Notes under the pieces: model-generated
Database searches by the model: none
What the model saw: the letters and a program-made list of their open reading frames with translations, nothing else
What the model was told of the DNA's origin: nothing
NCBI GenBank assembly: GCA_036768485.1
Contig: JAVLUZ010000261.1
Span: forward strand, 558,001-622,000
From: Mermis nigrescens
Taxonomy: Eukaryota > Nematoda > Enoplea > Mermithida > Mermithidae
Direction of reading: 5' to 3'
Length of the DNA stretch: 64,000 nucleotides
Shown: piece after piece, positions 4,148-57,863 of the stretch
How the letters are laid out: the number at the start of each line of letters is the position of its first letter
Position numbering within the stretch: the stretch's first letter is position 1
Translations under genes and position numbers: made by a program

Positions 4148-4155
4148 CTGATGAC

Positions 4156-23400: not shown

Positions 23401-26400
23401 AGCTCCGGAAGGGAGGGGTGAAATCGAGTTTCTCGGGAGGGGGTGAATGAGTAATATTTTTACCTATTTACTGTCAAATATTTGTTTTTTAATCAGTCGT
23501 ATTTGATTTTTTATTAATATTTATGCTTAAATTTGCATGAAAACAATAACTATCGGGGCAATGGAATGACCCGTAACGTCAGATACGTATATGCAAACAA
23601 AATAATAAAAGAAAAAGCATCCGGATGAATGAATCGTACCGTGTACTGCTCGAAAAATAAGTATAAGTAGGTATGCACTTTAGTTTACACCGTTAAACGT
23701 CATTTAACGCTTTTTTATGGCTCGAGCAATCAGTTTTGGTCCAAAATGACCCGAGGGGGTATGCTTCCCGGAAGTCTCCTTCAGGGGGCGTAAACCCCAC
23801 CCATACCCCCAACGTGCATTTGCGTTTCTTAGAATATTAATTAGTTAATAATGCTACGATGTAAAAATTAATGTATCCATTTATGTATTTATCCTTCTAA
23901 TTTTTTTCAGGCGCCTAACGCTTCTACAGTCGTTTTTCTGTGCAAGGATTTTATTATCAAACGCGATTCGCTGCCCAAACCGATAATCGAAGATTTAGTC
24001 AAATATTTTATCGATTTTAGCGATTCGATATTCAAACTGCCGATCGATTTTCAACTAGAATTTTTTTCGCGTCGGCGTAGACAAGTTTACACCGTCGCTG
24101 AACCAAATCCGAGTACGATGTACACGAAATTTGAAAAGTTTACAATCGTCGAGTCTCGCTAAGGGTCACCCCCAAACCTGGGCATAGGGGCTTTGGGGGG
24201 TATGCAGCCCCCAGAAACGAAAATACCCCCTCCAGAATTCAATTTTTGAAAATTTTTTTCGTTTTCTTCGCAATTTTTTGATGCCAATGGATAGTGCTTG
24301 ATGAGAAACGTCGAAAGATGGTGTTTTTATCGCCATACCACCATTTTTAACGCCATTTTTTGACCTTCAAAAAATCTTGCACCCCCCCCCAGAATTTTCT
24401 TGCTGCCCACGTATGGTCGCCCCGTCCGTTACAACATGGGATGTTGTTGTACGTTTTGAGGCATCAATTTAAAACGTACGACGACTTCCCGTGTTATTGA
24501 TAGACCGAAAACCTAAGCAAAACTTGAGATTGTAAGTGTTCAAATTTCGTGACGAGAACTTGTATATTTCAGTAGTATTTTTATCTTTTCAGATTTGTTT
24601 CTTCTTTTTTAGAGCATTCTGTTTTATGTTGTAAAATTTTACTTGTCAAATTTTGGCATTTTTATTCTCAGATTCTCAGCTAAATTTCGTTATTTAATCT
24701 CTTTGACGCTTTTTCTATTTTCCGATTTTTTCCTTTACATAATCACGTATTTTTATAATTTTGATTCTCATTCAATTTCATTAAATTTGCTCAGTTCCCT
24801 TTTCCTAAGAAAACTTCTTTTTCTTTTTTGAATTTTTACGTTTTCTCATTCGATAATCGGCTAACGAATAATTTTTTCAATTTTGAATGAAACCATTGAT
24901 GATTATTTGTAAGCCGTATTATAATTACTAAAATAATACGATTCATTAGCTAACGGTTAATCGTTAATAGCGCCTCGTACGCATTTGATACGACTTAGTT
25001 TTCAACGATGTATAATAAATCAATAATTTGAATATGTTTTGGCATAATTTCCGCTATTTCTTACTATAGACTCTATAAACCCGTAAAATTGATTACACCT
25101 CTACATACCTTTTTCGAGTTCTTTTAAGAGTGAAGGTCTCGACATCTATTTTTCATTCAAAATGCGTTATTAAGCTCATTCCCACTAATTTCAAGTTTAA
25201 AGATCCTCCGGTCTTACGTATCGTTTAACTCAACCTATTATATGTAAAACATTATATTATGAACAAGTTGTCGACGATTTTTCATACACTGGTGTGTCAT
25301 TCCGCCTTGTTATCGTCACTCATCCGCTTATGCTTATCAACCGTGCGGTCGTGTCATTACCACACCTGGGCGTGGGGGATCTAGGGGTATGGACCACCCA
25401 GAAACCATAATACCCCCAGAAATCAAAATACCCCCTCCCCCGAATTCAATTTTTGAAATTTTTTCCGTTTTTTCCGCAATTTTTTGATTCCAATGGATAG
25501 TGCTTGATGAGAAACGTCGAAAAATGGTATTTTTATCGCCATACCACCATTTTTAAGGCCATTTTTTGACCTTCAAAAATCTTGCACCCCCTTCCCCCAG
25601 AATTTTCTTGCTGCCCACGTATGGTCATTACTGGCGATCTAAACTTCATTTAGGATCCTGACTTTATTTCACTTATCAATAGAGGTCCTGATTTCTATGA
25701 ACTCTCCGCATAAATTGGGATTTTTGTGAAAATGACGTTTCTGATGCTCCGGATGATTTTGTTGCAATTTGGGTCAAACGAGGAAAAGCCACCTTTCTTC
25801 ATTGACTGACTGGGAAAATCGGATAAAACAAATCGTTTCACAAAGAAATTCACAGATTCAAAAAATCGAGATTTCCGTCCTTTTCTAATTCTCTCCTCTG
25901 TAAAACCTATCGTTAGATAGCAAATTAAGAATCTACACGATAACTTTGTCGTTACCGTCGCACGCAAGGCTAGCAATAATTCGTTCATCATCATAGGCAC
26001 CATTATTTATCCGCAGGGGCGGATTTATTGGCCCAAAATAGTGCGCAAAATTAAGCACTTTTTAGCGATTTTCGGGTTAAAACGGCTGATTTTTCCGCCC
26101 GAGGCAGGGTTCCGCCCCCCCCGTAGGGGTACCGCCCCCTTTGGAAATTCCTAGATCCGCCACTGTTTATCCGTTCATTGTCGGGAGTTGGGCTATTTTT
26201 CATGTCTATCCATACCCTCCGGGATGTTACCCTTATTTTATCCAATTCACGTGAAGAAACAATATCTTTGATTTGACCATATTAGATTCCAGAAAATTTT
26301 TTTCTCTAATTTTACCGGCTCTGTCAGTGAAGAAAGTCTTGACAAAAGACAACCTTTCACGTATCGGATTCCAAAACTTCATAAAATTCCCCCTAAATCT

Positions 26401-29098: not shown

Positions 29099-30079
29099 CG
29101 CGTTTTACCCTATTTAAATGTAAACATTCTGCTGTTTATTGCCGCGCAAGTTTTTCTTCAAATTACTCGTTAAACATATTTGTTGTGCATCAAACAGTCG
29201 TCTTTACGTATTTGTGTAACAGTGTAAAGTGAAAACTATTGCGTCAACTGGGCGGCAAACTCGAGCTGTTAAAAGCGCTTTCGTTTCACCATAGCTAATT
29301 TGAAGCATTATTTTTTGGATTAGTGTAGCGGGAATCGATTTACTTTATATCATCGGTTAAGATGCATTTTTATTCTAGTTTGCCTCCTACAATAATAAGT
29401 TAAGTAGTAGCCTCCGACGTCTAAGTATTACGGTATTTATAAATTGATTTAGTGGTTTACGCGTCTCGTTATTTCGTTCCGGCAACAAATGATGCATTCT
29501 TAAACGTTGGACCTCTAATTAGCGCCATAATTGCTGCGTTTGCTTTCATCTTTATTCGATCGTTTTTCGCGCTTATTATATGAATTTGTTTTATTTCGAC
29601 TTGTTAATTATTGTTCTGATGCCTGTAATGTATAATCGTATTAGTTGATTTTTAGACGTAAACTACTCCGTCAATGATACCTAAAATTACTATTTGTTTA
29701 GTAAAGTTCTGGCCTAATTTTTATCCTCCCGATTTCTCTGTTCAAACAGCTTAGCTTACGCTGTGCACAGATTTAGGCAAGTGTAGAGCTGCAGAGACAT
29801 GAAAAACTATTATTTTTACATATACGTAGACTTTTGCGCCTCGTAATGGGGCAGCAATTAATCAGATGGCGTGCTTGTCATAATTCATTTATGAAGCAAT
29901 TGACGAATGAAGAATGTTTTTTAAAGGCACGCTTTTTTCAGAAGGCGCAGAATATAGGTACTTCGACTGTTTGCGCTTTTAAGCCAAGTCTATTTTTAGT
30001 GGATTCCTACAACTTCCAACAGATAAATTTTCCACCTCCTTTTATGTCCTCAATGATGCGTAATGCAAGGCATATTAGT
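29099..30079. other. Sequence downstream of the DEPDC7-like gene
   Basis: Presumably 3' UTR and spacer. The open frame at 29834-30124 runs into the module tract at its end (CCATCGGAGCATTACTTTTA matches the foldback end at 36413), so it is not taken as a gene. Confidence 0.55.
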
Positions 30080-30799
30080 CCTTTTTGTCCCATCGGAGCA
30101 TTACTTTTAAATAGCAAGATTTGAGTAAGTCAGTAAACATACGGTAACATGCTACAGTAATTACAGCAGTCTAAGAAGGCGGTAAACAAGATCAAACCTT
30201 TTCAGCGTAAACTTTACGCAGCTACTGAGTGTAAAGAACACTTACGCTCATATTCGTAATCCTGTCGTTGCATGGAACATTTGTAGAAGACGCTCGGAAA
30301 TTAAAGTTAATTTTCAGTGAAAACTTTACAAAACTACCGGGTGTAAAGAAAACATACAGTCGGATTCGTAATACTGACCTTACGGAATATATTTCGAAAA
30401 TAAATTCACGTTTGCAACGCTCTGGAAGTAAAATACATTAATTTGTAGCGTAAACTTTACATATCAATAAATGAATAGCATAAACTTTACACAACTACTG
30501 GGTGTAGAGAAACCTAACAGTCGGATACATAATTCTGATATTACATGGAACATTTTGAAAAGATCAAGCTTCCGCAATGCTCTAGAACTTAAAGTCTGTT
30601 TCCTTTATTCGAAAACTTTTAAGTAAATTTTGTAAGGACTACAGTAAGCGAAACAAGATGAACTACTGTAATTCGGCAGAGCTCAGTTAAGGCGAGTGGC
30701 TGGAATTCTTCCATTTTTAATGCAAAAATCCGCCCATATAAATTTAATTTAGGCACTTAATCAGTGCTGGGACAAACTGCAGTAAGTGTGCTAAATAAA

Positions 30800-30875
30800 A
30801 AGCTATCGGCTAGAGTCGAACCCGAGTTGCTTCAACGACAAGCAGACGTTTCACCACTGAGCTATGCGGAAGTTC
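30800..30875 (-). ncRNA. tRNA-like segment, probably not a functional tRNA
   Basis: Minus strand reads CTTCCGCATAGCTCAGTGGT, then a 20-base middle and TCGGGTTCGACTC. Good matches to polymerase III box A (TAGCTCAGTGG) and box B (GGTTCGACTC). The acceptor stem does not close, so this is a tRNA-derived part of the mobile element. Confidence 0.6.
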
Positions 30876-30911
30876 GCGGTATTTCTTAACATCTTAGTCT
30901 ATTGTGTTTAA

Positions 30912-31331
30912 CCCTCCTGTTACCAAGGGGTAACGCACCCTAGTACTACCAACGTCTAGATCGAAGATCTAGTCTCCAGGGAGGTAGCAAATTTCAATAA
31001 AAAAACATGTTTTTGGTAGCCGAGGATACGAGGATTTCAAAAATGTTATAAAATTTGCTCGAAACTAAAAACCTATTGAAAGAATTGCATTCAAACATTC
31101 AAAAAAGTGTTCAAAATGCGATTTGCAACACACGTAATACATGTTGTAAATCAAGAAATGAAGCTTTTTTAAGGAATTCAGGTTAGTAACTTTTCTTTTA
31201 TTTCATAAAACATGTGTTTCAATGAGAAAAGATGGTACTGAGAAGTTCACCAAATAAGGACTTCTGGTCTTACAGTAAACTGCAAAAAACAGGCATATAG
31301 ATCTCGGATCTAGACGTTGGTAGAAGTAGGG
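30912..31331. mobile_element. piggyBac-like MITE, 420 bp
   Basis: Flanked by TTAA on both sides; ends CCCTCCTG..ACC and GGTAGAAGTAGGG. Subterminal inverted block ACCAACGTCTAGATC / GATCTAGACGTTGGT. No coding sequence. Confidence 0.85.
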
Positions 31332-32009
31332 TTAAAGTGTCAACTAAGGATAAGCCGAATGCGGGACTTTTATCTGCAAGTTGATTGATCTGCTGGAAGA
31401 AGGGAATAAATTATGCCGCAAAAACGTTATTGAAAAACCCTTTTTGCTTCGTAGCTAAAGTGAGATCTAGCGACCTACAGTAACAGAGAAATAAGGGGTT
31501 ACTGTTGCCTCTGGAAAGGTTTACTGAAAAAGCTCTCGTATAAATGAAACGGACTATAAGTTCATTTTCAATGTAAGCTTTACGCAATTACTGGGTTCAC
31601 ATAAGTTTGACACTCAGATTTGTAATCCTGATATGAGAAAATTTCGAAAGAAATTCATGTTTTACAATATTCTGTTCGCAAAATGAATTTTCAGTTTTAA
31701 CTTTGCAGTTCTACAATAACTCTAGTGAAAACTACACAACTAGAGTCTGTTTCATTTATCCGAGAGCTTTTCAGCAAATTTTTCACGAGACTACAGTAAC
31801 TCTATCTTCCCTACTTACTGCAGATCATTTAGAGGTCACTGTAGCAACATAGGAAAGAGGGGTTTTTCAATAAAATTTTTACGGCGTGATTTATTCTCGT
31901 CTTCCAGCAGATCATGTAACATGCGGATGGAATTCGCGCATTTAAAGCTTGTTATAAATCGACCATTAAACACAATTGGCTAAGATTTTAAACATCGCCG
32001 AAAACTTCC

Positions 32010-32085
32010 CGCTTAGCGTAGCGGTAGAACGTCTGAATGTCGTCGAAGCAACACGGATTCAATTCTTGCTGCAAGATTTTTATTT
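32010..32085 (+). ncRNA. tRNA-like segment, diverged
   Basis: Plus strand CTTCCCGCTTAGCGTAGCGG and GGATTCAATTC; same family as 30800-30875 in the other orientation, more diverged in box B. Confidence 0.5.
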
Positions 32086-32130
32086 AGCGCACTTACTGTA
32101 GTATGTCATAGCACTGTTTAGATGCTTTAA

Positions 32131-32573
32131 CCCTTCTAAGGCCAACACGGTGAACTCCGTTCACCAGGCATGCTTTTAGTAGATTTTGAGACCAAAAGCA
32201 CGATTCATGAAGTAAAAGTTTTTCATCTGTTATCTACCCCTATCTCACACATTTCTTTGTAAAAAAACCACAATAAAAAACGTACTTGTGTGTAAATTTT
32301 TAGTATTTCTCGACACAAAATCAAAAATTGCAATTTTAAAAAGTAGGCTACATACTGATTTAGTGCTTTTGACAATTACTGTAGATCTCACAGTATTGAT
32401 TCCTGTTTCATTGAAAATTCTCTAAAATTCTGTTTATCAATGAACAAGGAGTGGGCAATGTTCTGGGCATTGTATTATGCCAATGCATGTCACCTAAATA
32501 CTGTAAGTTTGCCCGGTGAACAAAGTTCATTGTGTTGGCCTAGAGACAATTTTTCATGTTGGCCGTAGGAGGG
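32131..32573. mobile_element. piggyBac-like MITE, 443 bp
   Basis: TTAA on both sides; ends CCCTTCTAAGGCCAACACGG and GGCCGTAGGAGGG, subterminal GGTGAACTCCGTTCACC / GGTGAACAAAGTTCATTGTG. The end logic matches the element at 30912 but the interior differs. Confidence 0.88.
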
Positions 32574-33939
32574 TTAATTAAGTCTATATGGACGATTCAG
32601 TGCATTAAAAAAAGGCCGCTCGCCCCCACTCAACTTTTCTATCGAGTTACATGAAATTATTTAGTTAGGCATTCTGTAGCCATCAAAAAAAGGAAAAAGC
32701 TCTCGAATAAATGAAACAGACTATGAATGGGTGTAGCAAAGACTAACAGTCAGATTCGTTATTCTGAAGTTAAGGAAAACATTTTTTCAAAAATAACGTT
32801 TTGCAACGCTCTGGAAACAAAATGAATTTTCACTGTAAACTTTACACTTACACAATAAGTCAATATTTGACTTATTAAAACGCACTACGTGAATGCGTGA
32901 TCCTTGATGTTTAGTACTTTTCTTATAATTACTATCATGACCCAACTCATATGGGGATAAGGTGACCGACACAAACCTGCCAAAAACGTCTTTTTTCAAC
33001 GCAGTTGGAACATTACAGCTCCAAAAATAAATCAATATTGAGTGTGAAGAAACTCGACCAAGTACGATATGTAATCAATTTCATTAACTTCATTTTTGGA
33101 ATAGTTCGCGCCATTCAATTTAAAACCGGAGTGGTTGACAGACAAGAAACGGCTAAAAACGTGTTTTTTACCTCAGAGTTTAAACTTTACAACGTTATAA
33201 ATAAATCTGTATCGAGTTTAAAGAGAAGCGTCCAAGTGGGATCTGTAACCCTCGAGACGTACTTCATTTTTATAATACTTTGAACGTCTCGATTTATATC
33301 TGGAGTGGTTGACAAACTAAAACAAGGTAAAAATGTGTTTTTTTGTCCACCACCTGAGTGTAAACTTTAAAGTGCCAGAACTAAATCCTTATTAAATTTA
33401 TACAAACGCGGTTAGGTTCTTCGTGTAGCCCCTTAATCGTAGTACTTTTCATAAATGGGTTTTTTGGGAATTCTTATACGAAGAATTCGGCAGATATGTA
33501 TATAAACGAGTCGAAAACTCGACCAAAACCTGTCTTCACACCCGCAGATTTTTCACTCTTTACACTCGCACTGAACAAGTAATGTGAAATTCAAGAAACA
33601 AAATGAATATCATCTGGAGAATTTAATCCTCTAGAAATCTATATCATTGAATTGCGTGAGACATTTGTGCTGGAGTTGTCTACAAGCCGTGGAAAAAAAA
33701 CCTTCCAAACTTGCTGAATGTTATAACATTACGCCAAAACTCTAAACGCTCATTTCAAACTCGGTATCGAATGTAAATAAAAAAAGACCGCATAATCCTT
33801 CTTCATTATCTATCCTTTAATAAAAAGGAACCACCCAGATGTGTCCCGTTATAGCTGTAGGGGGCGTATTTTAGGGGTACCCAAGTTACGTTTGTATATT
33901 ATAGGTGGTACGCGCAAACACGATGATTTCATGGGATAT

Positions 33940-34365
33940 GGATAACTCGCTTCCCCCACATTTCGCCCTTAACTACAACTCGCCCTCACACAATTCAACC
34001 CCTCCACAACTCGCCTCTATACAACTTGCCCCCACATAACTCGCCCCCACACAAATCGCCCCCACACAACTCTCCCCCGCCCACAACTCGCCCCCAACGG
34101 GCCCAACCACAACTTGCCCTCACACAACTCGCCCCCTCCACAACTCGCCCACATACAACTCGCCCCCCACACAAATCGCTCCCAAACAACTCGCCCCATA
34201 CAACTCGCCCCCACAACTCGCCCCCCACAATTTGCCCCACACAACTCGCCCCCAACCATAACTTGCCCCCACAAAAGTCGCCCCCACACAACTCGCTACC
34301 CCCACGATACGTCCTTCATAACTTGCCCCCTCCCCACTCGCAACTCGCCCCTTCACAACTGGCCC
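33940..34365 (+). repeat. CGAGTTGTG minisatellite
   Basis: About 25 copies of ACTCGCCCCCACACA-like units of 12-18 bp, strongly C-rich on this strand and G-rich on the other. Long open frames on both strands here are artefacts of the repeat. Confidence 0.92.
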
Positions 34366-34879
34366 TTGGAACTTCAAGCCGAGGGTTCATGATTGTTGAT
34401 ACAATTATATATATTAAAGTCTTAGGAGCTTCACGGCAAACCCTACTATGTTAACATTGAACTCATGATGACAAATTTTTGCGGTGTTTTTACAGTGCTG
34501 CTACAGCATATCGAGTCTGTCATGTTTTTATGTGTTCAGCAAATTGTGTCATGAATCATATTTATAAATGATTGGTACATTTCCATATATTTCTGATGCA
34601 TTGCTTATGCTGATTTTCTAGAATGGACATATATCCAGTGCAAACAGCTGCTCTGTGGGCCGTCAAACATTGAGTTTCTCTGAGGCGAAATTCACCTCAA
34701 AAACTGGCATAAATGTTAAAATAGCGGGAAAACTGGTTAATCTACAATTAATAGTCAATTTCAAATGCATTTTGAACAATTTTTTCTCGTTTCCATTGGT
34801 TTTTCGTCTTTATTTTGCCTCATTTTTCTCAAAACTTCTGATTCATCCATTCTGAGGGTCTATAGACACCCCACAACCA

Positions 34880-35408
34880 TATATGGGCATGGGGTTGGGT
34901 TTACACCCCCAGTCTCCGAAATTCCCCACCCAAGTCGATAAACCCCCATAATTGAATGTGTGGTGCTATTTTTGACAATTTCGCCCCATATGACCTTACA
35001 GAATTTGGTCCCATAAATAGACGTGTTCTTGGGGGAGGGGTTTGGGAAGTTTTAAGCCAGCTTCAACCCAGAATGGCAACTGACCCCGCAAAATGGCTGC
35101 AACCCCCAGAATTATCGATTTTTTCAAAAAGTTATAAAATGTGTGCCTTTTTAAGCGTTTTTAGCCCATTTTCGGCTCAAAAATTTCAAATTTTCGTACA
35201 CACATTTTTTGACAATATTTTGTCCAATTCACTCAATTTCTTCAAATTTTTCCAATTTTTTTACGTTCTTATATTCTAAAATGAACGAGCATTGTCTGAA
35301 ACGTAAAAATAGTGTTTTTGACGCGTATCCATCATTTTTTAGCCCGAAAAGGTTCTTTTTAAAAAATTTTTGGGCCTGATCACCTTTGAATTTCCATGCA
35401 GTACATGT
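34880..35408 (-). repeat. Interspersed repeat family B, copy 5
   Basis: CCATATATGGGCATGGGG to CCATGCAGTACATGTAC; includes AACGAGCATTGTCTGAAACG and ACGCGTATCCATCATTTTT, typical of this family. Confidence 0.7.
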
Positions 35409-35659
35409 ACATATACCCATAACCCCAATTGCATGTCTAATAGTTGTGGGGAGCAGTCAAGCATTGAATTGAGGCTGACCATTGCAGGCAACATAGGTGT
35501 GCAAGGTGAAACTCTTAGGGTTGGATGAAAATGCTATTTATAGCTAAGTGGCTTGTAAAAAACGACTATACAGCGGAAAAACAATATCACATTAAAACCA
35601 TTTTTCGAGCATTTGCGGCTAATACATGGCCTTTTTGAACTCACAAACATAAATATATA

Positions 35660-36435
35660 TATACTAGCAAAGAAAAATGCTCCGATGGAACAAAAAAGAT
35701 GAATATACTTGGAATTGTGGATTATTAAGGATGTTAAAGGAGGGACTAGGAGAATCTACCTAAAGTCGCAAAATCTGCTAAAAATCACACTTTCTCTAAG
35801 CAACGCAAAAAATCGAAGTATATTCTGCGGTTGATTGAAAAATAAAAATGATTGAAAAAGCAGCACGTTAGCTATGCAGCAGCTATGGGAAATAATATCG
35901 AGTAACAGTCTTTCTAAGCCAATTGAATGAAATAGCAAACATCGATGCATCCAAAACAATTGCAAGAATTGTTGGTTCAAAACAGTAGGAAACGCGTAAG
36001 TTGACTTGAAACAGACTAAATGTAGGTACACTAGCATGCCCGTAACGATTGTGTGCACTAATCAATCGGCCCCTGCTTTGCTTGCTATAATGCTCATAGC
36101 AAAATAAAACAACTTTAAATACAATACCACTTAGTTTTCTTTCAATCAGGATACGAAGCTAGTCAGTGTTGCTACTTGCCAGCAATTTAAAAAAGGAAAC
36201 ATTATAGATTCCGTTTATTATCTGAAATCTTGAAAATTATTTAAAAACGACACTTTTTAGAGGCCGCAGAATATACTTCGATTTTTTTGTGTTGCTTAGA
36301 GAAAGTGTGATTTTTAGCAGATTTTGCGACTTTAGGTAGATTCTCCCTAGTCCCTTCCTTTTACATCCTTAATAATCCACAATTCCAAGTATATTCATCT
36401 TTTTTGTTCCATCGGAGCATTTTTCTTTGCTAGTA
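35660..36435. mobile_element. Foldback element with TACTAGCAAAG ends, copy 1
   Basis: Arms of about 170 bp: TACTAGCAAAGAAAAATGCT at the left is inverted at the right (AGCATTTTTCTTTGCTAGTA). Arms continue through TTCCAAGTATATTCATCTTT and GACTTTAGGTAGATT. Non-coding centre. Confidence 0.9.
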
Positions 36436-38427
36436 CCCTACTTTAAATTAGCATGATTTCAGTGCATCAGTCAGCAAACACATACAGTAACATACCATAA
36501 TAATGACAGCAGTCCAAGAACGCGGAAAACATTATTGTTCTTAACATAAATTAATTGCCTCTAAATTTAAAAAATATTGTTTTAAAAAAAGACTCCATAG
36601 ATTTTATAACCGTCTACCTTTTGAAATCAATCAGACTGCATAGAATTTAAAACTGAGTTAGATATGCTCTTGATTGTCGGAAGTATAAAGTTTACTTTTT
36701 TTATTAGCTATAGTAAATATATGTCACATTCTAAACAGTCCTGTAAGTTATAGAGGTCGTTCCACATTTAAATTAACTTGGAAACGACATATAACGTACC
36801 TACGGGACTTACTTAAGTACCTGGCTACACTTAGCGCTGGTCAGGTTGCTAGGGCGAAACGCCGGACTCAACCACACGAACCTCAATAACTACGGTCTCA
36901 AACTCCTCGGCTATGCCCTAAAAACCTAACGCAGTAGTAATTAAGTAGCCCCGGAATTTTGCCCTAGGTCAGTTGACCTATTTTGGACCAAAATAATAAT
37001 TAACGCAAAAAGCTTTGTTAACTTGTTTTCGCCAGAGAATACCTATGGCGAAAAACTATTTCTTTTCTGGTCCCTACGAGCACAATGAACAATGAAAACA
37101 ACAAAAAAGAGCTCTCAACCAGCCAGTCATCTTACATAAAAATTATGAAATAATTTTTTCGATTTTTAAATTGAAATTTGTGTGTTTGAATTTGCGATAA
37201 AGAAAATAATCAAAAGATAGTCACTTGGATTATTTAAGCACGAGTAATAAAATAAGGCCGTCACACCAATTCCGAACTAAACGCGATTGATCACTATGAA
37301 AAAGTATTGAAAAATGAGCTTGCTAAGCGAGAGTTGTAAACCAAGAGAAACTTAAAGTTTAAACCTACCATTAAATAATGAAGAAAATTGTAAAAGATTT
37401 TAAACTTTAAGAAAATTGAAAAGGTGGGATGTTGGTAACTTAAAAAACAAAGTTTTTCGGCAAAAATTCAAGAACTTCACGCAAATATCAAGTGTAAGGA
37501 ACACTAACGCTTAGATTTGGTAGTAAAATAAATTTGTAGTATAAACTACATATTAACAACAAATGAATAGTGCAAACTTTACACAACTACTAGGTGTAGA
37601 GAATACTAACAGTCAGATTCCTAATTCTGATTTTACGTAGAAAAAAACAAGAATTTTACTTTATTTTTATCCTATCCGACCTCGCCCGACTTCTGAACAG
37701 AGAAAGTGGCCAACAAAAATGTACAAACACGTATTTTCCACTGTCCTTCACATTGTAAACTTTAAAAATCTGAACCTAACGCCCATTGAATGTAAATCAA
37801 TTCGGTTCGGGCCAGTTTGTTGCCCTTTGATTGTAGTAGGTTTGTAAGTGCCAAATTTATGTTCCGCAAAATATTAATACGAAAAAACCTGTTTTTTTCG
37901 ACCACTTTACACCTCAGATTTCGAACTTTACACCCCATAAACAACTCAATATTACGTTTTTATGAACGCGGCTTGCTTCGACGTGTAGCCATTAGAAGTT
38001 ACTTTATTTCTATTTTATTTAATTAACCCCAACTTTTATCAGTGAAATCTTGGAAAAAATCTGTTCTTTTACTCATCCACTAGAGTGTAAAGTTTAAAAC
38101 CCTGATACTAACTGCGTATTGCTTGTAGAAAAGTTTGCTGGTAAGCACAAGATAGCCCTTGATCCGTAGTACATTTCTGTCGGAAAAAATTTCCTAAAAC
38201 TCATAACCGGAGTTGTTGGCAGACATAAGCATGTCGAAAACTCGGCCAGAAATGTGTCTTTTCGCCCCCAGATTTTCGCACTCTTTACACTCCCATTCGA
38301 CAACTGAGGCAAAATTCAAAACACATAAAAGTGTTATCTGCATAACCTAAATAGATATATGAGTCAAATGAAGTACATGGTTTTGCCAAAAGAATTGTAA
38401 AAAATGTGAAAAGTCAGCATTCAGAAG

Positions 38428-38506
38428 ATTCGAACCCATCATTCTTTGTTTAATACCGCATCCGAGAACGGAGTTGTCAACCACTGCGCCAACTCGACAT
38501 ATCAGC
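38428..38506 (-). ncRNA. tRNA-like segment with long variable arm (Ser/Leu-like), pseudogene
   Basis: Minus strand GTCGAGTTGGCGCAGTGGTT (box A), a 35-base middle and GATGGGTTCGAATCTTC (box B). The 3' strand of the acceptor stem does not pair with the 5' strand, so it is not a working tRNA gene. Confidence 0.5.
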
Positions 38507-40765
38507 AGATTTAAGCTTGATTATCCTATTTTGAAAGATATTCATCATTCTACTGATGTTTAAGAATAGTGCATTTATGATGATAAAAATAATTATTTAT
38601 TAAAGACGAGTCAAAAACCTCTGAAATACGAAAAATCTGATCAAAAATATGCAATGCAGAGTTATCCATCGGCATTAGAAAATAGATGTACCTATACATA
38701 ATTCAAAGTTCACCTCTTCATACCTCAACAAACACTGGCTGTAGAAAAGTTTAAAGGTCAGATTCGTTATTCTGACCTTACGGAGAACATTTTAAAAAAA
38801 TTCATCCTCCACGACGCTCTGGGCGCAAAAATGCTTCTCGGTGTAAACTTTACACTTGTGCTAATACCGCAATATTGGGTGTATAGAAACAAAATAAACT
38901 GGGATCTGTAACACTAAGGTCAGGGCACCTTTTAAGCATAATTAGCATGTTCCGCCTACTTAGCGGAGTAGTTGGAGAGATATCATTTTTCGTCTCGAAC
39001 CCTTTACACTAAAACGATCACAGATCAAGAAATATTGCGTTATAAGAAAGAAAAAAATCGGTTTTGAGATTTTGCAACCTTCTACATTATAAAACCAATT
39101 GGACTGCACAGAAACCAAAATTGAGTTAGATAAGCTGAAGGACACGCAAATAGTAAAAAACACGTATACTTTACACTTTTGTGCAACAACCATTGACTGT
39201 AAAGAAATTTTAAGGTCAGATTCGTAATCTACAGCTAGGGGGCAACATTTTAAAAAAAAATTGGCCCGCCGCAAATTATTTGATTTTTTGCTTTACACTT
39301 TACACGCTCATTGCTAACTCAGTATTGAGTGTAAACAAAAGAAAAAAAGACAGGCATCGAATTTTTTAATTATTCATCGCTTAAAAAAAAGCGCACCTCC
39401 CAGGTGTGTGTAAGAAAAAGGATGGCCAAGTATATTATAGGTAGCGCTATCGCGCTACCTATGATATTAATACCAAAGTACAATTGTCTGAGGACAAAAA
39501 AACAATGAGTGTAAACTACTTTACATCACTGTTAGATGTAAACAAACGCGCCTACGTGACGTCTCACATTTGATTCTTTGAAAATTTCTAGACTCCAGGA
39601 AAAAATTAGGTTTCTAGAATGCTCAAAATGAAGATAAACACATATGTAGTGTAAACTTCATGTTAACACCTAGTGTAAAGAAGGTTTTGGTCAGATTCGT
39701 AATTTTGATATTGTTCCGATATTACGATTAATATTTATGAAAAAATTAAGTCTCCCTAATGTTCTATGGGCAAACTAACAATAGGTGTAAACTACTTTAC
39801 AACATTATAGAGTGTAAACATATGCGCCAGACTGGCATATCAAATTTGGTATCTGGTCCATTTCTAGACTTGATAATCGTGTCCCTGACTCATAGCCGGA
39901 GAAGCAGGCAGAAAAAACAAGACAGAAACGCACTGTAAACACCAAATTTTTGACTTTACACTCGCTAAATATTAATGTATAGACAATTTGCTTTGACATG
40001 CACCCGATATAAAGCACTTTATTTTTATTCTATTGGACTTATTCCGACTTCTGGACGGAGAAAGTGGCGAACGAAAAACGCAACAAAAACGTATTTTCCA
40101 TCATTTAGAACACTGTAAACTTTAAAATTCCGTACCGAACTCCCCATTGAGTTTAAAGAAATTCGGTTTGGTACAATTTGTAGCTTTTAAATCGTAGAAC
40201 ATTTCTGTGTGCCGAAATTCTCTTGCAAAAATTATTTGGTATGATTTATTAATCAAAATTCGGAAAAAACGTGTTTTTTCGCCCATTTTTTACCTCTGAT
40301 TTCGAACTTTACACCCCCATTAATAACTCAATATTGCGTTTTTTTTAATGCGGTTTACTGCGATGTGTAGCCCCTGAGAGACACTTTATTACTGCTGTAT
40401 TCAATTTACCCTGACTCATAAGCGGGAAAATTTGGCAGAGAAATCTTAGTTAAAATCCGTTTTTTTACACCATCCACTGGAGTGTAAACTTTAAACCCCA
40501 AGATCATAGCCGTGCCTAGGGGGTGCGAACTGTGCGGCCGCACAGGGCCGCTAAAATTATGGGCCACTTGAAAAGTTGTAGTGCATGCCGTATAGAATTC
40601 ATTTTTTGGCGGCCCTCTTACAATAATTCGATACATACGTTCAAAAGGATCGATTTTTCGACGTTCTAATGCAAACCCAGTCAGTTAAAAATCTTTACTT
40701 GCATTTTTAAGAGAACGCTGACTGAGCTATACTTGTATTCATTTTTCAGACATAGGGAAAAGGTA

Positions 40766-41005
40766 AAATCCGGAACCAGGACAAGGACCAGGACCGGACA
40801 AAATGGGTAAAATCCGGACAATCAATCAGGAACCAGGACCAGGACCGGACTCAGGACAAATGGGTAAAATCCAGACAATCAATCAGGACAATGAAAAGAT
40901 CAGGACAATGTATTAGATATGCAGGGTCGGACTGGCCAGGACCAGACAAATTGGGCTGACAAATTGACAAATCAGACAAATTGGGCCGGTCCTGGCCAGT
41001 CCGAC
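40766..41005 (-). repeat. GGACCAGGACC minisatellite arm
   Basis: Units GGTAAAATCCGGACAATCAA and CAGGACCAGGACCGGAC. The inverse follows the family A MITE at 41249-41416. Confidence 0.85.
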
Positions 41006-41248
41006 CATACGTAGGCAGCAAGAAAATTCTGGGGGGGGGGTGCAAAATTTTTTGAAGGTCAAAAAATGGCCTTAAAAATGGTGGTATGGCGGAAAAAAAC
41101 ACCATTTTTCGACGTTTCTCATAGAGAACTATCCATTGGCATCAAAAAATTGCGAAAAAAACGAAAAAATTTTTAAAAATTGAATTCTGGGGGTATTTTG
41201 GTTTCTGGAGGGGGTTGCATACCCCCAAACCCCCCAAGCCCAGGTGTG
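41006..41248 (+). mobile_element. hAT-type MITE family A, copy 8
   Basis: CATACGTAGGCAGC to CCCAGGTGTG with flanks agtccgac / aatccgac. It sits between inverted copies of the GGACCAG minisatellite. Confidence 0.85.
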
Positions 41249-41835
41249 AATCCGACCCTACATATCTAATACATTGTCCTGGTCTTTTCATTGTCCTGAT
41301 TGTTTGTCCGGATTTTACCCATTTGTCCTGAGTCCGGTCCTGGTCCTGGTCCTGATTGATTGTTCGGATTTTACCCATTTTGTCCTGGTCCTGGTCCTGG
41401 TTCCGGATTTTACCCATACCCCTTAAAAATAGTGGTACGGCGAAAAAACACCATTTTTCGGCGTTTCTCATAGAGCACTATCCATTGGCATCGAAAAATT
41501 GCGAAAAAAACGAAAAAAATTTTAAGAAATTGAATTCTGGGGGGATATTTTGGTTTCTGGGGGGTGCGTACCCCCCAAACCCCCCACGCCCAACTATGAG
41601 TCCGACCCTACATATCTAATACATTGTCCTGATCTTTTCATTGTCCTGATTGTTTGTCCGGATTTTACCCATTTGTCCTGAGTCCGGTCCTGGTCCTGGT
41701 CCTGATTGATTGTCCGGATTTTACCCATTTGTCCTGAGTCCGGTCCTGGTCCTGGTCCTGATTGATTGTCCGAATTTTACCCATTTTGTTCTGGTCCTGG
41801 TCCTGGTCCTGGTTCCGGATTTTACCCATACCCTC
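41249..41835 (+). repeat. TGGTCCTGGTCC minisatellite and duplicated unit
   Basis: TTGTCCTGAGTCCGGTCCTG and TGATTGATTGTCCGGATTTT recur four times; 41070-41416 and 41420-41832 form a direct duplication of about 410 bp that includes MITE sequence. Confidence 0.82.
41420..41600 (+). mobile_element. hAT-type MITE family A, copy 9, 5'-truncated
   Basis: Begins within the element at CTTAAAAATAGTGGTACGG and ends CGCCCAACTATG, followed by agtccgaccc. With the adjacent minisatellite it forms a direct duplication of 41070-41416. Confidence 0.75.
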
Positions 41836-42529
41836 AGACACATTGTTGATTTTTCTATTGCAATAATGTGTGTCCAGAAAATTGAGTTCGAAAAGGCTAA
41901 AATGTCAAAATTTTCCGGCGCTTTGCACCAAGCCATAGATCAAATGAATTTAAAAGCTTGAATCAGCTGAAATAATCTAGCACTTCACATCACTATTAAT
42001 TTAATGCACTATTTGTTCATTGAATGAAAGTGCGCATGCTTGTTGAGCATTAAACTAAAAGTGCGAAAATGATTGTGTACCAGTTTGTCTATTCTTTGTT
42101 TTTTGTCTTTCTTTACAAGGACACGATCCCATTTTAAATGAAAGAAATGGCCAAATTTTCTTATGTTTTTGTGCATGTTCTGTTTTCTGAACTGCATCTT
42201 CTTAATAAGAAGGTCACAAATGGGCCTGAAAAGGGTAAGAACAAAAACTTCAATTTATACATTTTTCTATATCTTATTGGCAGCGACCCGTTGCTGCGCT
42301 ATGTAATTAGCAGAGGTCGAAAAACGCATTTCAGCTCAGAAGTTTTGTGAGATGTAAGAGTTCATCAATTTTAGATTGTTTTTGGCTCCATTCAGGGCCG
42401 AAATTCGGCCGTTTTTGCGAAAATTTCAACGTTATTATTTGACATTAAAATGCTTTTTACAAAATTTGTAGGTACTCTTTCCCGGACCCCGCAGGGAACG
42501 CTTGACCGCGCCACCTAAGACCCCCGCAG

Positions 42530-42665
42530 CATATGTGGGCAGCAACAAAATCCCGGGAGGGTAGGTGCAAGGTTTTTTAGAGGTCGAAAAATGGTCTTAA
42601 AAATGATGGTATGGCTAAGAAATATCGTTTTCAAGGTTTCTCATTGAGCACTACCCACGAATACC
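42530..42665 (+). mobile_element. hAT-type MITE family A, copy 10, 3'-truncated
   Basis: Starts CATATGTGGGCAGCA and keeps the TCTCATTGAGCACTACCCA core, but stops there; the hAT transposase fragment begins 20 bp further on. Confidence 0.72.
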
Positions 42666-42685
42666 AGCTTTAAAAACATAGTAGG

Positions 42686-43060
42686 ATGATGAATCGCTCA
42701 AGTCATGCACATGGACCAGACATGTACACTAAGCTAAAAGTTCTTGCTCGATCAAGTCCAAATGAATTAACTTCGCCACCAGCTACTCTTAAATATCTAT
42801 CAAATGACTTCCTGGATGTTTTCCCGAACCTTATACTTGATTTCAGAATTTTACTTACAATACCTATTGCTGTGGCCTCAGCAGAACGTTCCTTCTCGGA
42901 ACTGAAATTAATAAAGACATATTTGCGGTCAACTATGACTGATTCTCGTCTAAGTGCACTAGCGATTATTTCAGTTGAAAAGGATTTATCATCTTCGTTA
43001 GATTTTTTGCAATTGATTGACCAGTTTGCCGCTCAGAAAGCTAGGCAAGTTATTTTGTAA
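42686..43060 (+). pseudogene. hAT transposase C-terminal fragment
   Basis: Decodes to a stretch with LLTIPIAVASAERSFSELKL and RSTMTDSRLSALAIISVEKD, the hAT C-terminal dimerisation region (ASAERSFSxLKxIK..R..M...RL..LA). The SAER glutamate is present, but the rest of the catalytic core upstream is gone. It belongs to a different hAT lineage from the intact transposase at 13681-17732 and is probably the relic transposase of the surrounding 40505-43302 element. Confidence 0.82.
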
Positions 43061-44559
43061 TAAAGCACGCCATCATTCACGAAATAGGTAAATTATTTGA
43101 GAGAAAACATACGATACCTACTAAAAATAATATATTTTGTTAGTAAATTTACAGTAAGATGCTACACTGCGATCATATAAGTACATATGTAAAAGATATA
43201 CATAAGTGATAATTATGATGCCTATAATACCAGTTTTAAAAATTATGGGGGCCGCCAAAATAAGTTTCGCCCAGGGCCGCTAAACCTCTAAGCACGGCCC
43301 TGCCCAGGATCTAACTCGCCATAGAGCATAGAAGACTTTGCTTATATGCAGAATGTAACCTTTGATCCGCTCTACATTTCTGCTCAGAAAACATTTTAAA
43401 AAACTCATATCCGGAGTTAGTATCGGACATAAGCAGGTTGAAAACTCGACCAAAAAGTGCTTTTTCACTCCTAGATTTTCGCATTCTTTACACTGCCATT
43501 CGATAACTAATGCGAATTTCAAAAAACAAAAAAAGTGCCATCTGTAGAATTCATCCTTCTATTATCCTATCCTATTCAATTCTTCGAGTCATCAATACTC
43601 AGTTGTCCACATGCCGCAGTAAAAAGGTCCCAAAATTTGTCCTATGTTAAAACGTTACACAAAAAACTTTACACCTTTAAAAAAAAACTTAAAACAAAAA
43701 AACACGGGCAGCGAATTTTTTATTATCTTTCTTTTAAAAAAAACCGCACCTTCCAGAAGTGTCCCGTTATAGCTGTAGGGGGAGTGCACAGGTGTTAGGG
43801 GTACCCAAGTATATTATAGGTACGCGCTAACGCGCTACCTAAGATAGCCTTTTTGGAACTAAAATCAGCTAATTATCCCTTTCTAAAGTCGAAAAATTAG
43901 CTATAAATCCTTTCGAAACCGAGAAACAAACAAGAAGTTACGCGTATGTTGAATTTCTGAACTCACACGTAGCGTTGGCAAAATCCGCAAAAAGGACTTT
44001 CCGGACAATAGTCCAGGTTTTAGTCCGGACTGCTTCGGATCAGGACTATAGTCGGACCATAGTCCTTAAAATAAAAGACTTAGTCTGTGACTATGTCCTC
44101 TATAAAAATGCAATATCATTTAGCAGGGAAAACATATATGGCTTTTCGTTAAAAAATTAGAGAACAATGCTGATACCTACTATGCACATGGTGGTATGCA
44201 CTTTCTAGTGCTTTTCTGTTCAGATCTGATCCAATAGTCAATGAAAAGAACTTTACAATCAATGAATACATACATGCATACATATATATTACTAGTTGAA
44301 CTGCCCGGCGTTGCCCGGGCTGAACTTAGGCCTGATAGCTATATGGAATTAATATGTCTCTTGTATTTTTTATTTTTCAAGACTTTTGATGTTTTTGGGA
44401 TATTTCTAAAAAAATTGTTGGTACAAACCATATTTTATTTTTTGGATTTTTTTAAAATGTCTTTTGTCAACCATTTTTTTGATCAAATCCATATTTTTGA
44501 CGTTACAGAATGGTTTTGAAAATTGTTTAGCCATAATCATATTTTTGATGTTCTGGGGT

Positions 44560-44810
44560 GTTATGGGAATTTTTTTTTATAAAACCCATATTGTTGATGT
44601 TTTGGGATGTTTTTGGAAAATTTTTTCCGTCAAACCATATTTTTGATGTTTTAGGATGTTTTGGAAAATTTTTTTAATCAAACCCATATTTTTGATGTTT
44701 TGGGATGTTTTGGAAAATTTTTTTCGTCAAACCATATTTTTGATGTTTTAGGATGTTTTGAAAAATTTTTCGGTCAAACCATATTTTTGATGTTTTAAAA
44801 ATTTTTTGTT
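44560..44810 (+). repeat. Minisatellite, units of about 55-60 bp
   Basis: Four to five imperfect head-to-tail units built on CATATTTTTGATGTTTTGGG followed by ATGTTTTGGAAAATTTTTT and CGTCAAAC. Confidence 0.8.
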
Positions 44811-44879
44811 TGTTGTTGCAAAGGGTGTCATATATCACGTGATATGTTATAGCTGATGGTATCTCCTATCTTATATCAC

Positions 44880-45245
44880 TGCATGTTATGGCACAGACAG
44901 GGTATCTATACCAAACCTATCTTATAGCATTGCCTATCTCGTAGAACAGGGTATCTTATATCCCATACTATCTTATAACATTGCCTATCTTGCAGCTCGG
45001 GGTATCTTATATCACTTCCTCTCTTATAGCATTGTCTATCTTGTAGCACCGGGTATCTTTTATAACGTTCTATCTTATAGCATTGCCTATCTTGTAGCAC
45101 GGGGTGTCTTATATCACGTCCTATCTTATATGATTGCCTATTCTGTAGCACAGAGTATCTTATATCACGTCCTATCTTATAGCATTGCTTATCTTGTTGC
45201 ACATAGTATCTCATACCATGCCTATCTTATAAAATTGCCTAGGTT
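44880..45245 (+). repeat. Minisatellite, units of about 50 bp
   Basis: About six to seven units of GCATTGCCTATCTTGTAGCA, then GGGTATCTTATATCACG and TCCTATCTTATA. The long open frame on the minus strand is simply the repeat translated. Confidence 0.88.
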
Positions 45246-46844
45246 ATAGCATCATTTGGTTAAACCCGTATTTTGATGTTTCACAGTGCCGACCAATGCT
45301 ATAACATATAACAATGTACATAGTGTCGCCAGGCAAGCTCCTCTTGGCCGGGGTATCCCTATACAAACAGTATAAACTAATTTTTGAACAAAATAGCAAA
45401 AAATCGGCCATCTCCGAAATCGTGGAGGCTTATAGCACAGGGGCCAAACTCTGCTCCGTCCCTGCCCAGGGCCAATGGGTGCGTTTGTCGAAATTTCAAG
45501 ATCGCTACGGCTCCTTCCCCCATTGAACCGACCTCGGCCCAAAATATCAGCCCATCAAATTTCATTGGGCCGGAGCCAGCCCGGCACAAACATACATACA
45601 TACAAAGAAACAAACTTTCAAAAATATATAGTAGATAGGTGCTACTATAAATACATTTTGTAACAAACTTCACTCAGATTCAAGTAAAAAATAGCAAATA
45701 CTACTGGCCAAACAGTTAGGAGTTAAACTTCGAAAAAATTTCCATTTCAATACGCACATCGCTTACATTGTGACGATTTTAATCTAAAACCACACTTGCA
45801 CAACTAAACACGCGTTCACATGGTGCCGGCCGACGTTGCGTGAATGGCCAAAATCGTGGATGCAAGTCTGGACTGAATGCTTCGTATGAATCCAACAAGA
45901 TTTGGTCTTGAACCCAAAATATGAACTTTTTCAAATTCAACAAAATATAGTCTTGAAACCAAAATATGAAAATGTTTATGTTTATACAGCTAATTATGTT
46001 TTTAGGTTCTTATAAAAAATGACAGTGGACATTGGGGACAATACTTTTATTAAAAAACATTGATAATGCAAACTTAACTATAGCTGTTGTTGAGTTGACA
46101 ACTAATTAGCTGTTATGATTGACAACCTCGCCTGTTTTTTCCGCCTTCACTGAACAAATAAAACATATCGCTTTGAGCACAGTCTAAAAATCAGACAATA
46201 AAAGAAAAACTAACGTGAACATAGGCGTTAAACGCAAACAACACTCCCCAAAGAGAGGGAAGACTTGCAAAACGCACGTCAAACGTCGGATAGCACAACG
46301 TGGAAGGAGTTAGACTTTTGTCCGGTAGGTCGGACTTACCGGACTCAGTCCGCCAAAAAAAGGACTAGTTCTTTTCCGGACTAATGGGCTAAAAAAGACT
46401 GGGACTATAGTCCAAAACCTAAAGGACTTAGTCCGGACTATAGTCCTTGCTAGTTCTTAGTCGGACTTTTGCCAACGCTACTCACACGGTATGTTTCTGA
46501 GTCCAAAAAGGCTAAATAGCTAGTTATCTAAAGCCCCAAAAAAGGCAATATAGCAATGTTTTTTCAGCCAAAATGGCTATATATGTAGCTATCAGTGTTT
46601 TAGAGCCCAGGGGAGTAATACCCCCTCTCACCCCTCCCCATGCCTATGTATTGCAGACAAGACAAAAAAGGTCAGGTAAGAAAAAAAGTGTTATGGGCAA
46701 TAATACTCAATTGTAAGCTTTATTCATTAGCATAGAAGAATTACGAAAAAATTCAAAAAATTGAACTCCGTGGGATTTTTAGCTTCTGGGGTCCGACCGA
46801 ATCTCCGTTCATTGGATTGTAATTGCGATTCAATTTGGAGGCGA

Positions 46845-47639: not shown

Positions 47640-47830
47640 ATGTCGATGCACAATGGAACGATGGGGCGGAGCGACGTTTTTTCGACCAGTCAGTACGGCG
47701 CCGCGCGGCCCGCGTCGTCCGCTACGGTCCACCGACCGACTACGACGAAAATCAATTTTTTCATTTTACCCATTTTTGTGCTAGAATTGATCGGACTGGC
47801 CTGCCTTTGGGCTTTGTTCTACTACCTAAG
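47640..47830 (+). CDS. PLPPR-like exon 1: N-terminus and first membrane helix
   Basis: Encodes a polar N-terminus beginning MSMHNGTMGRSDVF, and the helix INFFILPIFVLELIGLACLW. Donor gtgaga at 47831. The sequence just upstream is richer in CG than the surroundings and may hold the promoter. Confidence 0.82.
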
Positions 47831-50800
47831 GTGAGACGCTTTTAGGAAAATTGCCTAATTTTTTCTTTGTGAATCTGAAACGTTTGACTAAATATATGCA
47901 AATAATACGTAAAATATCGGACAATCACTCAATTAGTCTTATGCAGACATGCATGCACGTAGGAGATGGGTTTTGCGGGTCCGTCCGTATCATACATGTA
48001 TAGCATTGGAATTCTGGAGAGGTCAGGCTCAAAAAATGTTTAAAAAGTGTCTTTTTAAGCTAAAAAACGATGAGGTACACATCAAAAACCCTGTTTTTTG
48101 ACGTTTCGGACAATGCTCGTTCTTTCTAGAACATAAAACGTAAAAAGTTTCGAAAAAAAGTTGAAAAATTGCGTAAATTGAACAAAGTATGGTCAACAAA
48201 TGTGTGTATCGCGCGAAGCGCCGAAACTTTGAGATTTTTGAGCCAAAAATGGGCTAAAAACGCTTAATAAGGCACACTTTTTACAACTTTTACAAAAAAT
48301 GATAATTCTGGGGAGGGTCGCAGCCATTTTGCGGAGGGTCAGTTGCCATTCTGGGGATAGGGGTCTAAACCCCAGCCCCCATAACACGTCTGGTCTATAG
48401 CCCCTTCGAAATACAAAACTAGGAATTTGTCTCGGGACAATAAGGCAAAATTAAAGGTCAAAAATTGATTTCAGAAGTGCTTTAAAATTGACCAGGAGCT
48501 GTGTAATAACCTACTTTTAATGCTAGCGCTTATACCACTTTCTGATATCATCTTGGCCCAAAAAAAGTCAATTTATGACCCCCACTCCCCAGACCGACTT
48601 ACCCCCTAGATCAGCCATGCTGTGAATTATGGTCATATGTCGTTGTTATTTGTGCGAACACAATGAAATTGAATTTGAGATAACCGAAGAAAAGATAAAA
48701 TTATTTGATTTCTGTGATTTTTATCCCGCCTTATGAAACCGTTGTTCCTCATTTTATCTTTCAGATTTACTTCCGTATTTCCTTATCATCACAGAGTATT
48801 CCGGTGCACGGACGAATCGTTATCGATGCCCAATTACAGACCCGATGACTTTAACTTATTTGTGTCGGAGCGAACTCTGTACTGCGTTTCTTTCATTATT
48901 CCGCCATTAGTGGTGAGCTAGACTAATAGGTTAAGCCGGTTTGGGGTCAGCTTTTTTCACTAGAGTAATCTGCTAAATTAATGCAATCGTTATAACGATA
49001 AGGCAAAAACTATTTGATAAGTTAAAAACCTAAAATGACTACACACAGCTAGATGATAATTTAAATTACTTTTGCAAAAAGGTTTTTCCCATTTTTCCTC
49101 AATTCTCCCTTATTTGAAAACTTTTTTCTTTCTTTCGGGGTTCAGATTTCGTAACCCATGCGTATCTTTTTAGCGAGTTGTTATAAATTAATTGAGCACA
49201 CTTTCTTAATGTTAAACAAAAGTGAAAATGCAAACGCATTGATCAAACTATTGTCCGTTTCTTTTAACATTGAGGTTTTTGAAAAAATTTAAAAGGCGCC
49301 CAAAAGCGTTTTAAACTTACGCCGTAGTTGTGATATTCTACAGTCTATCGAGTTGCGGTGAGATGTTTGCAATTCTAACTTCTGTAGCCTGATTTATGCG
49401 GATTATATTCAAAGAAAATTGCAGAGTAAAATGAAACAGAATTGTTGATTTCATCATATGAGGGAATTCAAAAGCACGAAGAAATGGGATGGTACATTTT
49501 CCCTTTTGTTTTTTTTGATCCAAAAGTCTTGATAAAATGGACTTGTTTTCAAGTATTTTGACTTTTTTTTATTCATCGGAATGAACCAAAAAGTGAACAT
49601 CTCACAATCCGACCAAAAAAGAATCGGTCGAAAATAAAGAAGAGGGGCCAATGAAGATAAGGATTTTATCAATTCGCTGATACTAATTATCAGCGCATAG
49701 TGTGACAATCGATTTCAAGCAAATTTGCAGGAAAATTTTTGATTTTCATCCATTTCTGATTGTTATTTTGCCTTATTTTTCCCAAAAGCTTCCAATTTTT
49801 TCATACTGGCGGTTTATCCGGGCCCTCAAGCTTTACTACGTACATTCGTCTCGTGCTCAGTACTACTGTTTAAGTCATCATCTTCATTTTATACTTTCTA
49901 CTTTAATCATACAATGACTTTACCGAAATGCACTCTCAACATATTATGTGGCTTTTTAATTTAATTTTGGCAGATTTTGATCGGCGAAATAATGTTTTGG
50001 CTATTTTCGACTAAACCGCGAAAAAAGAGCCTAATGACGTGCCGCGAATGCAAGGTTCATTTGATAACGCGGCGTTTGTTCAGATTCGTCAGTGCGTACA
50101 TTTTTAATTTTTCATTAACATCTTTAATTAATTGCATTTTTCGCCGTATCCGCTTAGCGCGGCACAAGCTATTCGCCAACTTTTTAAGGTACATTTATGT
50201 TCGGTGCCTTGATCGTTTGCATATTTATCGATTCGATAAAATTGATCACCGGTTACCAAAGACCATATTTTTTGACTCTGTGCAATGTTACTCAAAGATG
50301 CCCTCGACTCAATAATTTTTCTCCATGGCCTAGTCCTGAAATTATTTGCGGCAATAGACGCGAAAATGAGCTCCGTTACGCTTGGTGAGCAAATTATACG
50401 GAATTAATTAATTTTCCGTAGTTGAAAAGCTAAAGTTTGCGTAATTTTCAGCTCGTAATCGGTGAAAATTGTAAAAAATGAAAAAACACTTTTGAAGAAA
50501 GTTCGAATAAAAAAAATGAATAATTTATAATTCATCTTCGGAAATTAATATTTAATTTAAGATTCCATTATGTTTATCATTTTAGTCAATACGCGTCTTA
50601 TTTTTTCTAAAAGTCACGGATTATCGCTTTGTCTGGTTTTTCAGCACATAAGTCCATAAATGATCATTATTGAAATAGTTTTGGTAAAAAATTGTTCCGT
50701 TCTTGGTCATATGTTTTGATTCTTTCTGCATTTTTATTTATTTGTTTTTTATTTTTATCTAATATTTCTTTTTCATTCTTGATTTATCCGATTGTAATAA

Positions 50801-57623: not shown

Positions 57624-57863
57624 CACACCTGGGCGTGGGGGATTTGGGGTATGCACCCCCCAGAAATCAAAATAACCCCCCCAGAATTCAATTAAAATTT
57701 TTTAGTTTTTTCGCAACTTTTTGATGCCAATGGATAGTGCTTGATGAGAAACGTCGAAAAATGGTGTTTTTATCGCCATACCACCATTTTCAAGACCATT
57801 TTTTTCACCTTCAAAAAATCTTCCACCCCCCCCCCCACAGGATTTTCTTGTTGCCCACGTATG
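57624..57863 (-). mobile_element. hAT-type MITE family A, copy 11
   Basis: CACACCTGGGCGTGGGGG to GCCCACGTATG with a perfect duplication attacgag at 57616-57623 and 57864-57871. It lies about 180 bp beyond the stop codon of the GM2A-like gene. Confidence 0.93.

Follow-up and report, generated by a model that had tools for sequence, protein, structure and literature searches.

Blocks of satellite-like repeats around a near-palindromic box in a 64-kb stretch of Mermis nigrescens DNA

We analysed a 64-kb window (the whole stretch of DNA considered here, contig JAVLUZ010000261.1 of Mermis nigrescens, positions 558,001 to 622,000, with coordinates counted from its first base), and within it a tract at 30080-43961 in which a near-palindromic box, TGTAAACTTTACA, recurs, together with a second copy close to the right end of the window. 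The tract holds two families of satellite-like repeat units, A and B, arranged in blocks of recurring order and broken by later insertions. The explanation we favour, for which there is about as much to be said as against it, is that copies of a composite element, non-coding and furnished with satellite-like repeats, have decayed into the tract and the second copy seen today; the element would have spread in a HINE-like mode.

Repeat units and their arrangement in blocks

Both unit families carry TGTAAACTTTACA and then GTGTAAAGAA. In A (~114 bp) the box comes first, followed by CAACTACTGGGTGTAAAGAA and then GTCAGATTCGTAATTCTGA, and in B (~168 bp) the same leading box is followed by AACTCAATATTGAGTGTAAAGAAA and later by a CGGAGT-GTTGGCA stretch and AAAACGTGTTTTTT. 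Profile models of 114 (A) and 168 (B) positions, with seeds hand-picked by eye around the box, returned 31 matches at E ≤ 0.01 (14 A, 17 B), all on the plus strand and either at 30.2-43.5 kb or at 63.3-64.0 kb; both models match one stretch, near 38.84 kb. The best scores in 20 shuffled windows were 10.3 bits (A) and 13.8 bits (B), which all 14 A matches (27.0-86.3 bits) and 15 of the 17 B matches (27.6-114.2 bits) exceeded, the other two B matches, at 33737 and 39522 (11.8 and 12.7 bits), lying inside the range of shuffled scores. A distant relation between the A and B consensus sequences is apparent; 6 of 1000 base shuffles aligned equally well.

Adjacent B units start 159-189 bp apart, aside from one 105 bp step at a partial unit, and adjacent A units 99-161 bp apart, so that the 175-185 bp steps reported in a preliminary description of the tract hold within the B arrays and not elsewhere. 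The same description presented the 13.9 kb as a tract of modules; the units do not form one continuous array, as they fill 3,331 of 13,882 bp (24%); the remainder consists largely of block ends and of later insertions (hAT-type, piggyBac-like, minisatellite, and one resembling a miniature inverted-repeat transposable element, MITE).

The units fall into three blocks of the same orientation, E1, E2 and E3, with a partial copy C that is cut by the window end (Table 1), and the order left part, A units, B units, tail recurs among them. Self-comparison showed the left parts to be colinear (29803-30192 in E1, 35644-36549 plus 37141-37613 in E2, 61899-62798 plus 63027-63506 in C), confirming the second copy that had been described as starting at 61.9 kb. 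Copy C is 85-90% alike to E2 up to 63506, and beyond this point a stretch is 65% like E3. Extra A and B units lie within the E2 tail (38705-39273), the end of which occupies 39295-39466. E1, which is the older block, is broken by later insertions from ~30650 to 32700.

Compared in register, the B units of E2 are 83, 79, 80 and 78% identical to those of E3 (scores 280, 380, 438 and 485), far above neighbouring B units inside the same two blocks (scores 66-168), which argues that blocks were copied and not single units, and that a block of four B units predates the separation of E2 and E3.

Higher-order repeats also yield in-register blocks, and the main rival to our favoured reading is an old dispersed higher-order satellite, in which unequal crossing over and segmental duplication dispersed and rearranged the A and B units, with no fixed-end element and with the MITE and the tail hairpin as passengers. 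We regard this as possible, if rather doubtful: tandem arrays of B units, mosaic joins in E2 and C and undefined termini are all consistent with it, but at four to five units the arrays are short, a common left part and tail accompany them, and copy C lies 18 kb off, past a gene. Of the features of a classical satellite, head-to-tail tandem units of one length class are present in the B arrays (three to five units), whereas long homogenised arrays are absent, the units covering 24% of the tract and neighbours in E2 and E3 being less alike than in-register units.

Table 1 Positions of blocks, repeat units and inserted elements in the 64-kb window
Feature	Position	Strand	Details
Block E1	29803-33924	+	Partial left part 29803-30192; tail ends at 33924
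E1 A units	starts 30207, 30320, 30481, 31573, 32721	+	
E1 B units	starts 32836, 33009, 33181, 33361	+	
Block E2	35644-39466	+	Left part 35644-36549 and 37141-37472; tail ends at 39466
E2 A units	starts 37473 (partial), 37572	+	
E2 B units	starts 37651 (partial), 37756, 37924, 38088	+	Followed by tail start
Hairpin at E2 tail end	39432-39467	+	16-bp stem, z -5.6
Block E3	39482-43846	+	A unit at 39651; tail ends at 43846
E3 B units	starts 39794, 39953, 40116, 40305	+	Plus a unit split by an insertion (40483-40504, 43303 on)
Partial copy C	61899-64000	+	Cut by window end; left part 61899-62798 and 63027-63364
Copy C A units	63365 (partial), 63465 (partial), 63892	+	
MITE-like stretch	35662-36435		In left part; ~170-bp inverted ends (97% alike), TA-flanked
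MITE-like stretch, second copy	61917-62684		
Insertion in E3	40505-43302		Splits a B unit; hAT dimerisation domain at 42674-43057
hAT-type insertion	43970-46480		Inverted ends TAGCGTTGGCAAAA; perfect 8-bp flanking repeat CTCACACG on both sides
Two small elements	30908-31335, 32127-32577		Bounded by TTAACCCT and AGGGTTAA
Minisatellite	33944-34365	+	~15-bp units of ACAACTCGCCCC type, right of E1
High-copy repeat	3900-4158, 7366-7555, 14520-15140, 24173-24419, 25361-25626, 27448-27627, 41003-41592, 42530-42657, 57624-57863	both	Up to ~250 bp; copies mostly 77-94% alike

Counts and conservation of the box

With at most one mismatch, the box TGTAAANTTTACA occurs 14 times in the window (0.9 expected; maximum of 3 in 100 shuffles), 11 times in the tract, twice in the second copy and once elsewhere, two of the 14 being exact (32834 and 38842). 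With two mismatches there are 17 in the tract, yet also 13 in the remaining window outside the second copy; the box does cluster in the tract, whilst the count of at least fifteen first described is reached only at the looser threshold. The companion GTCAGATTCGTAATTCTGA, at up to three mismatches, was found eight times against 0.02 expected, every time within the tract or the second copy, and in unit A it lies ~40 bp downstream of the box. The boxes assigned to a second module are present but few at the thresholds applied: CGGAGTNGTTGGCAGACA twice (up to three mismatches), CGAAAACTCGACC five times (up to two mismatches; 1.0 expected), three falling within B units or tails, and ACTCTTTACACTC nine times (up to two mismatches; 1.3 expected), once outside the tract.

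Conservation is clustered along the units (neighbouring-column correlation, p 0.005 in A and 0 of 2000 shuffles in B) in alignments from which rows more than 85% like another were removed (2 of 14 A, 1 of 15 B), and against column shuffles the best 12-column stretch gave p 0.03 in B and p 0.16 in A. As the seeds had been chosen around the box, part of its conservation in these alignments is built in, and because of this bias we added a comparison of duplicated stretches, where the box was identical at 128/150 positions (85%) and the rest at 1706/2115 (81%, p = 0.09), with box coordinates entered by hand (a few off by 1-2 bases) and with counts that are not independent, since several stretches share E1 or E2 DNA. 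The box fared better than its surroundings in four of the seven stretches and worse in two, and was not included in one. In eighteen hand-listed instances of TGTAAACTTTACA, compensating changes did not exceed those in shuffles at offsets 1 to 6, counted from the centre. Eleven offsets were tested, and the one that stood out, offset 9, lies outside the box (reached by 15 of 2000 shuffles); we put this down to chance. A hairpin constraint on GTCAGATTCGTAATTCTGA was also considered and rejected (paired cells 66.0% vs. 63.6% shuffled, reached in 55 of 500 shuffles; covariation reached in 88 of 500), as was a CENP-B box, with none in the tract and one 3-mismatch match outside it at 24796 (0.5 expected).

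The preliminary description had seen a hint of constraint in the recognisable boxes, to be abandoned if they proved no more conserved than the modules. The outcome lies in between: clustered conservation and the B result speak for the hint, the A result does not, and the box is not clearly slower in the duplicated stretches. The excess conservation of the box is weak and inconsistent, and we lean towards little or no constraint, the box probably being the portion of the ancestral unit that has survived best, under mild constraint at most.

Selection would have a larger part if a chromatin protein (a centromere or replication factor, for instance) bound the units and TGTAAACTTTACA were kept for this binding. 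We consider this improbable. The B box does beat column shuffles, conservation is clustered in both units, and published work describes divergent Meloidogyne satellites with a conserved box and CenH3-bound repeats with a 19-bp box (PMC9673304), but significance is lacking in A and in the duplicated stretches, the box has neither compensating changes nor a CENP-B counterpart in the tract, and the choice of seeds inflates its conservation. It is very improbable that short dispersed box-bearing blocks mark chromatin (centromere or replication domains) in this early-branching nematode through TGTAAACTTTACA as a putative binding site, and we give equally little weight to the analogy by which such blocks would be the counterpart, independent in sequence, of the Meloidogyne box repeats.

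Homologous regions of some insect viruses consist of repeated near-palindromes, and the near-palindromes repeated here in non-coding DNA resemble them, which would suit a remnant either of a large DNA virus or of a giant element whose non-coding body was regulatory. Such an origin is scarcely credible, as four patterns gave no exact match in a viral collection (a weak test) and the only coding remnant in ten open reading frames (ORFs) scanned in the tract derives from a hAT element within a nested insertion. Two single matches of an 18-base pattern to prokaryote contigs were read as chance (~7 expected by our own estimate), and the exact box strings were not found in the literature searched, which covers few subscription papers.

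Later insertions and neighbouring genes

CCCAAGAT and CCCAGGAT stand on either side of the insertion within the E3 B unit, as an imperfect duplication of 8 bp, and the hAT fragment inside this insertion was the sole match in a Pfam scan of the ten tract ORFs; the tract, originally called gene-free, is so across these ten apart from this piece of transposase (42674-43057). A giant coding element was rejected as a candidate on the same scan, which took in ten tract ORFs and not all ORFs or frames. The hAT-type insertion at 43970 accounts for the right limit (43961) drawn for the tract. It is itself nested within further inverted ends (TAGCCTTTTTGG at 43845 and CCAAAAAGGCTA at 46503), and contains two adjoining minisatellites with periods of 49 and 51 bp (44473-45251). 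The two small elements within E1 we take to be piggyBac-like from their signature, and a 1.4 kb foldback spans 30748-32130. Three stretches looked tRNA-like by eye (30800-30870, 31990-32060 and 38420-38500), where ARAGORN, run with the bacterial code, called no tRNA gene; it found none in the window, nor were any Rfam families found there.

Between the tract and copy C lies a plus-strand gene (47652-53317) with exons encoding a phospholipid phosphatase-related protein. The joined exons, used as query, gave 45 matches, and the 41 that are named are all from nematodes, the best being Trichinella, with Trichuris and Soboliphyme also near; the top match overall, 70% identical, is an unnamed metagenome protein. 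These relatives show the DNA to be nematode and suggest that it is probably clade I-like, a placement based on this one gene. The GC content of the window (36.1%) and its heavy load of repeats would fit a mermithid; Romanomermis culicivorax, for one, has 36% GC (PMC3890508) and a genome of which repeats make up 68.2% (PMC10879605).

Four ORFs of at least 150 amino acids, starting with ATG, GTG or TTG, are present in the window, the biggest encoding a hAT transposase (16065-17732), a long open frame of 555 amino acids from its ATG. Among the 120 relatives listed of 702, the named proteins are animal, from fish, molluscs and insects, with 26-36% identity among the matches listed. An Exo_endo_phos_2 domain of the endonuclease-reverse transcriptase type on the minus strand (20166-20642) is probably a fragment of a retrotransposon without long terminal repeats (non-LTR).

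Block ends and a candidate mode of spread

The hairpin that closes the E2 tail is strong (Table 1). E2 and E3 have CCAAGTATATT directly before the hairpin, and its reverse complement, AATATACTTGG, is found in the left parts of both E2 and C. Hairpins as such are not enriched in the tract (13 vs. 14.5 expected by length).

This layout recalls the Helentron-associated elements HINE/DINE-1 and oyster Cg_HINE, which carry satellite-like central repeats and a palindrome after a subterminal repeat that is inverted at the left (PMC7492417; PMC4067079). Like them, the blocks are non-coding and carry tandem units in short arrays; the E2 hairpin and the 11-bp inverted match may correspond to the palindrome at the right and to the short repeat inverted at the left. 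They differ in that the hairpin is strong in one of three tails, in that no partner was seen, and in the phylum of the host, Cg_HINE being from oyster. A HINE would further be expected to sit between T and T in a T-rich site, with no target duplication, and to have an autonomous Rep/helicase partner that shares its ends. Each block would thus at best function like a HINE, and we do not class it as one. Similarly, bivalve satellites are tied to Helitrons and to modular MITEs of the pearl family, which hold satellite-like short arrays within modular elements, in one case with a palindrome near the repeat junctions (PMC5139131); these belong to another phylum, and the likeness is one of description. 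In Meloidogyne, also a nematode, divergent satellites share a short conserved box (PMC9673304; PMC3694981), whereas the box here is weakly conserved and not CENP-B-like. By analogy, then, the blocks would fit a known landscape of bivalve satellite-bearing elements and Meloidogyne box satellites. A search for literature joining Romanomermis and satellite DNA, covering few subscription papers, found only an ecotoxicology review and says little.

Our favoured reading builds on what was observed in the units, the block order, the E2/E3 in-register similarity and the nested insertions. An ancestral block, in which a left part and A units were followed by four to five B units and a tail with a hairpin, would have given rise to at least three copies in the same orientation (E1, E2 and E3) and a partial fourth 18 kb further on. 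The units would first have arisen by tandem amplification, the finished block would then have been copied whole, most likely as a non-autonomous element dependent on an enzyme encoded elsewhere, and later insertions would have disrupted the copies. Mobility and the missing partner are what we infer here, our best guess at the mode being rolling-circle, in the manner of Helentron/HINE elements. An element is suggested because the A and B models match the tract and the second copy only, and on one strand, because left part, A, B and tail keep a constant order, because E2 and E3 agree in register across their B units and because copy C sits past the gene at ~47.7-53.3 kb; its HINE-like character is suggested by the strong E2 hairpin and the preceding CCAAGTATATT, found inverted in the left parts.

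Several observations weigh against this reading. The block ends are undefined, and neither a partner element nor an empty site was seen, the partner not having been sought elsewhere in the window. Both E2 and C are mosaics and form no clean series, and the register of E1 is poor, its second and third B units being most like each other (366) and its fourth resembling the second of E3 (302) and the fourth of E2 (293) alike. At the tail end, the E3 hairpin (43817-43842) is weak (z -2.0; 13 of 200 shuffles fold equally well) and none was found in the E1 tail, whilst the 11-bp inverted match, for which there was no chance control, is short enough to arise by chance and is missing in E1. The suggestion of the preliminary description, an ancient satellite or the body of a non-coding element, proved roughly right, in that satellite-like units appear to have been copied in blocks and then broken by insertions, though not as one array or one giant element.

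Present evidence points to ordinary repeat debris, with slight hints only that the motif is relevant. If the blocks are mobile, they would add to the elements that generate and disperse satellite-like repeats, here in a nematode line that branched off early. If the box is bound, it would bear on chromosome organisation in clade I nematodes; Trichinella and Trichuris may be monocentric, while most nematodes appear holocentric (PMC9071541).

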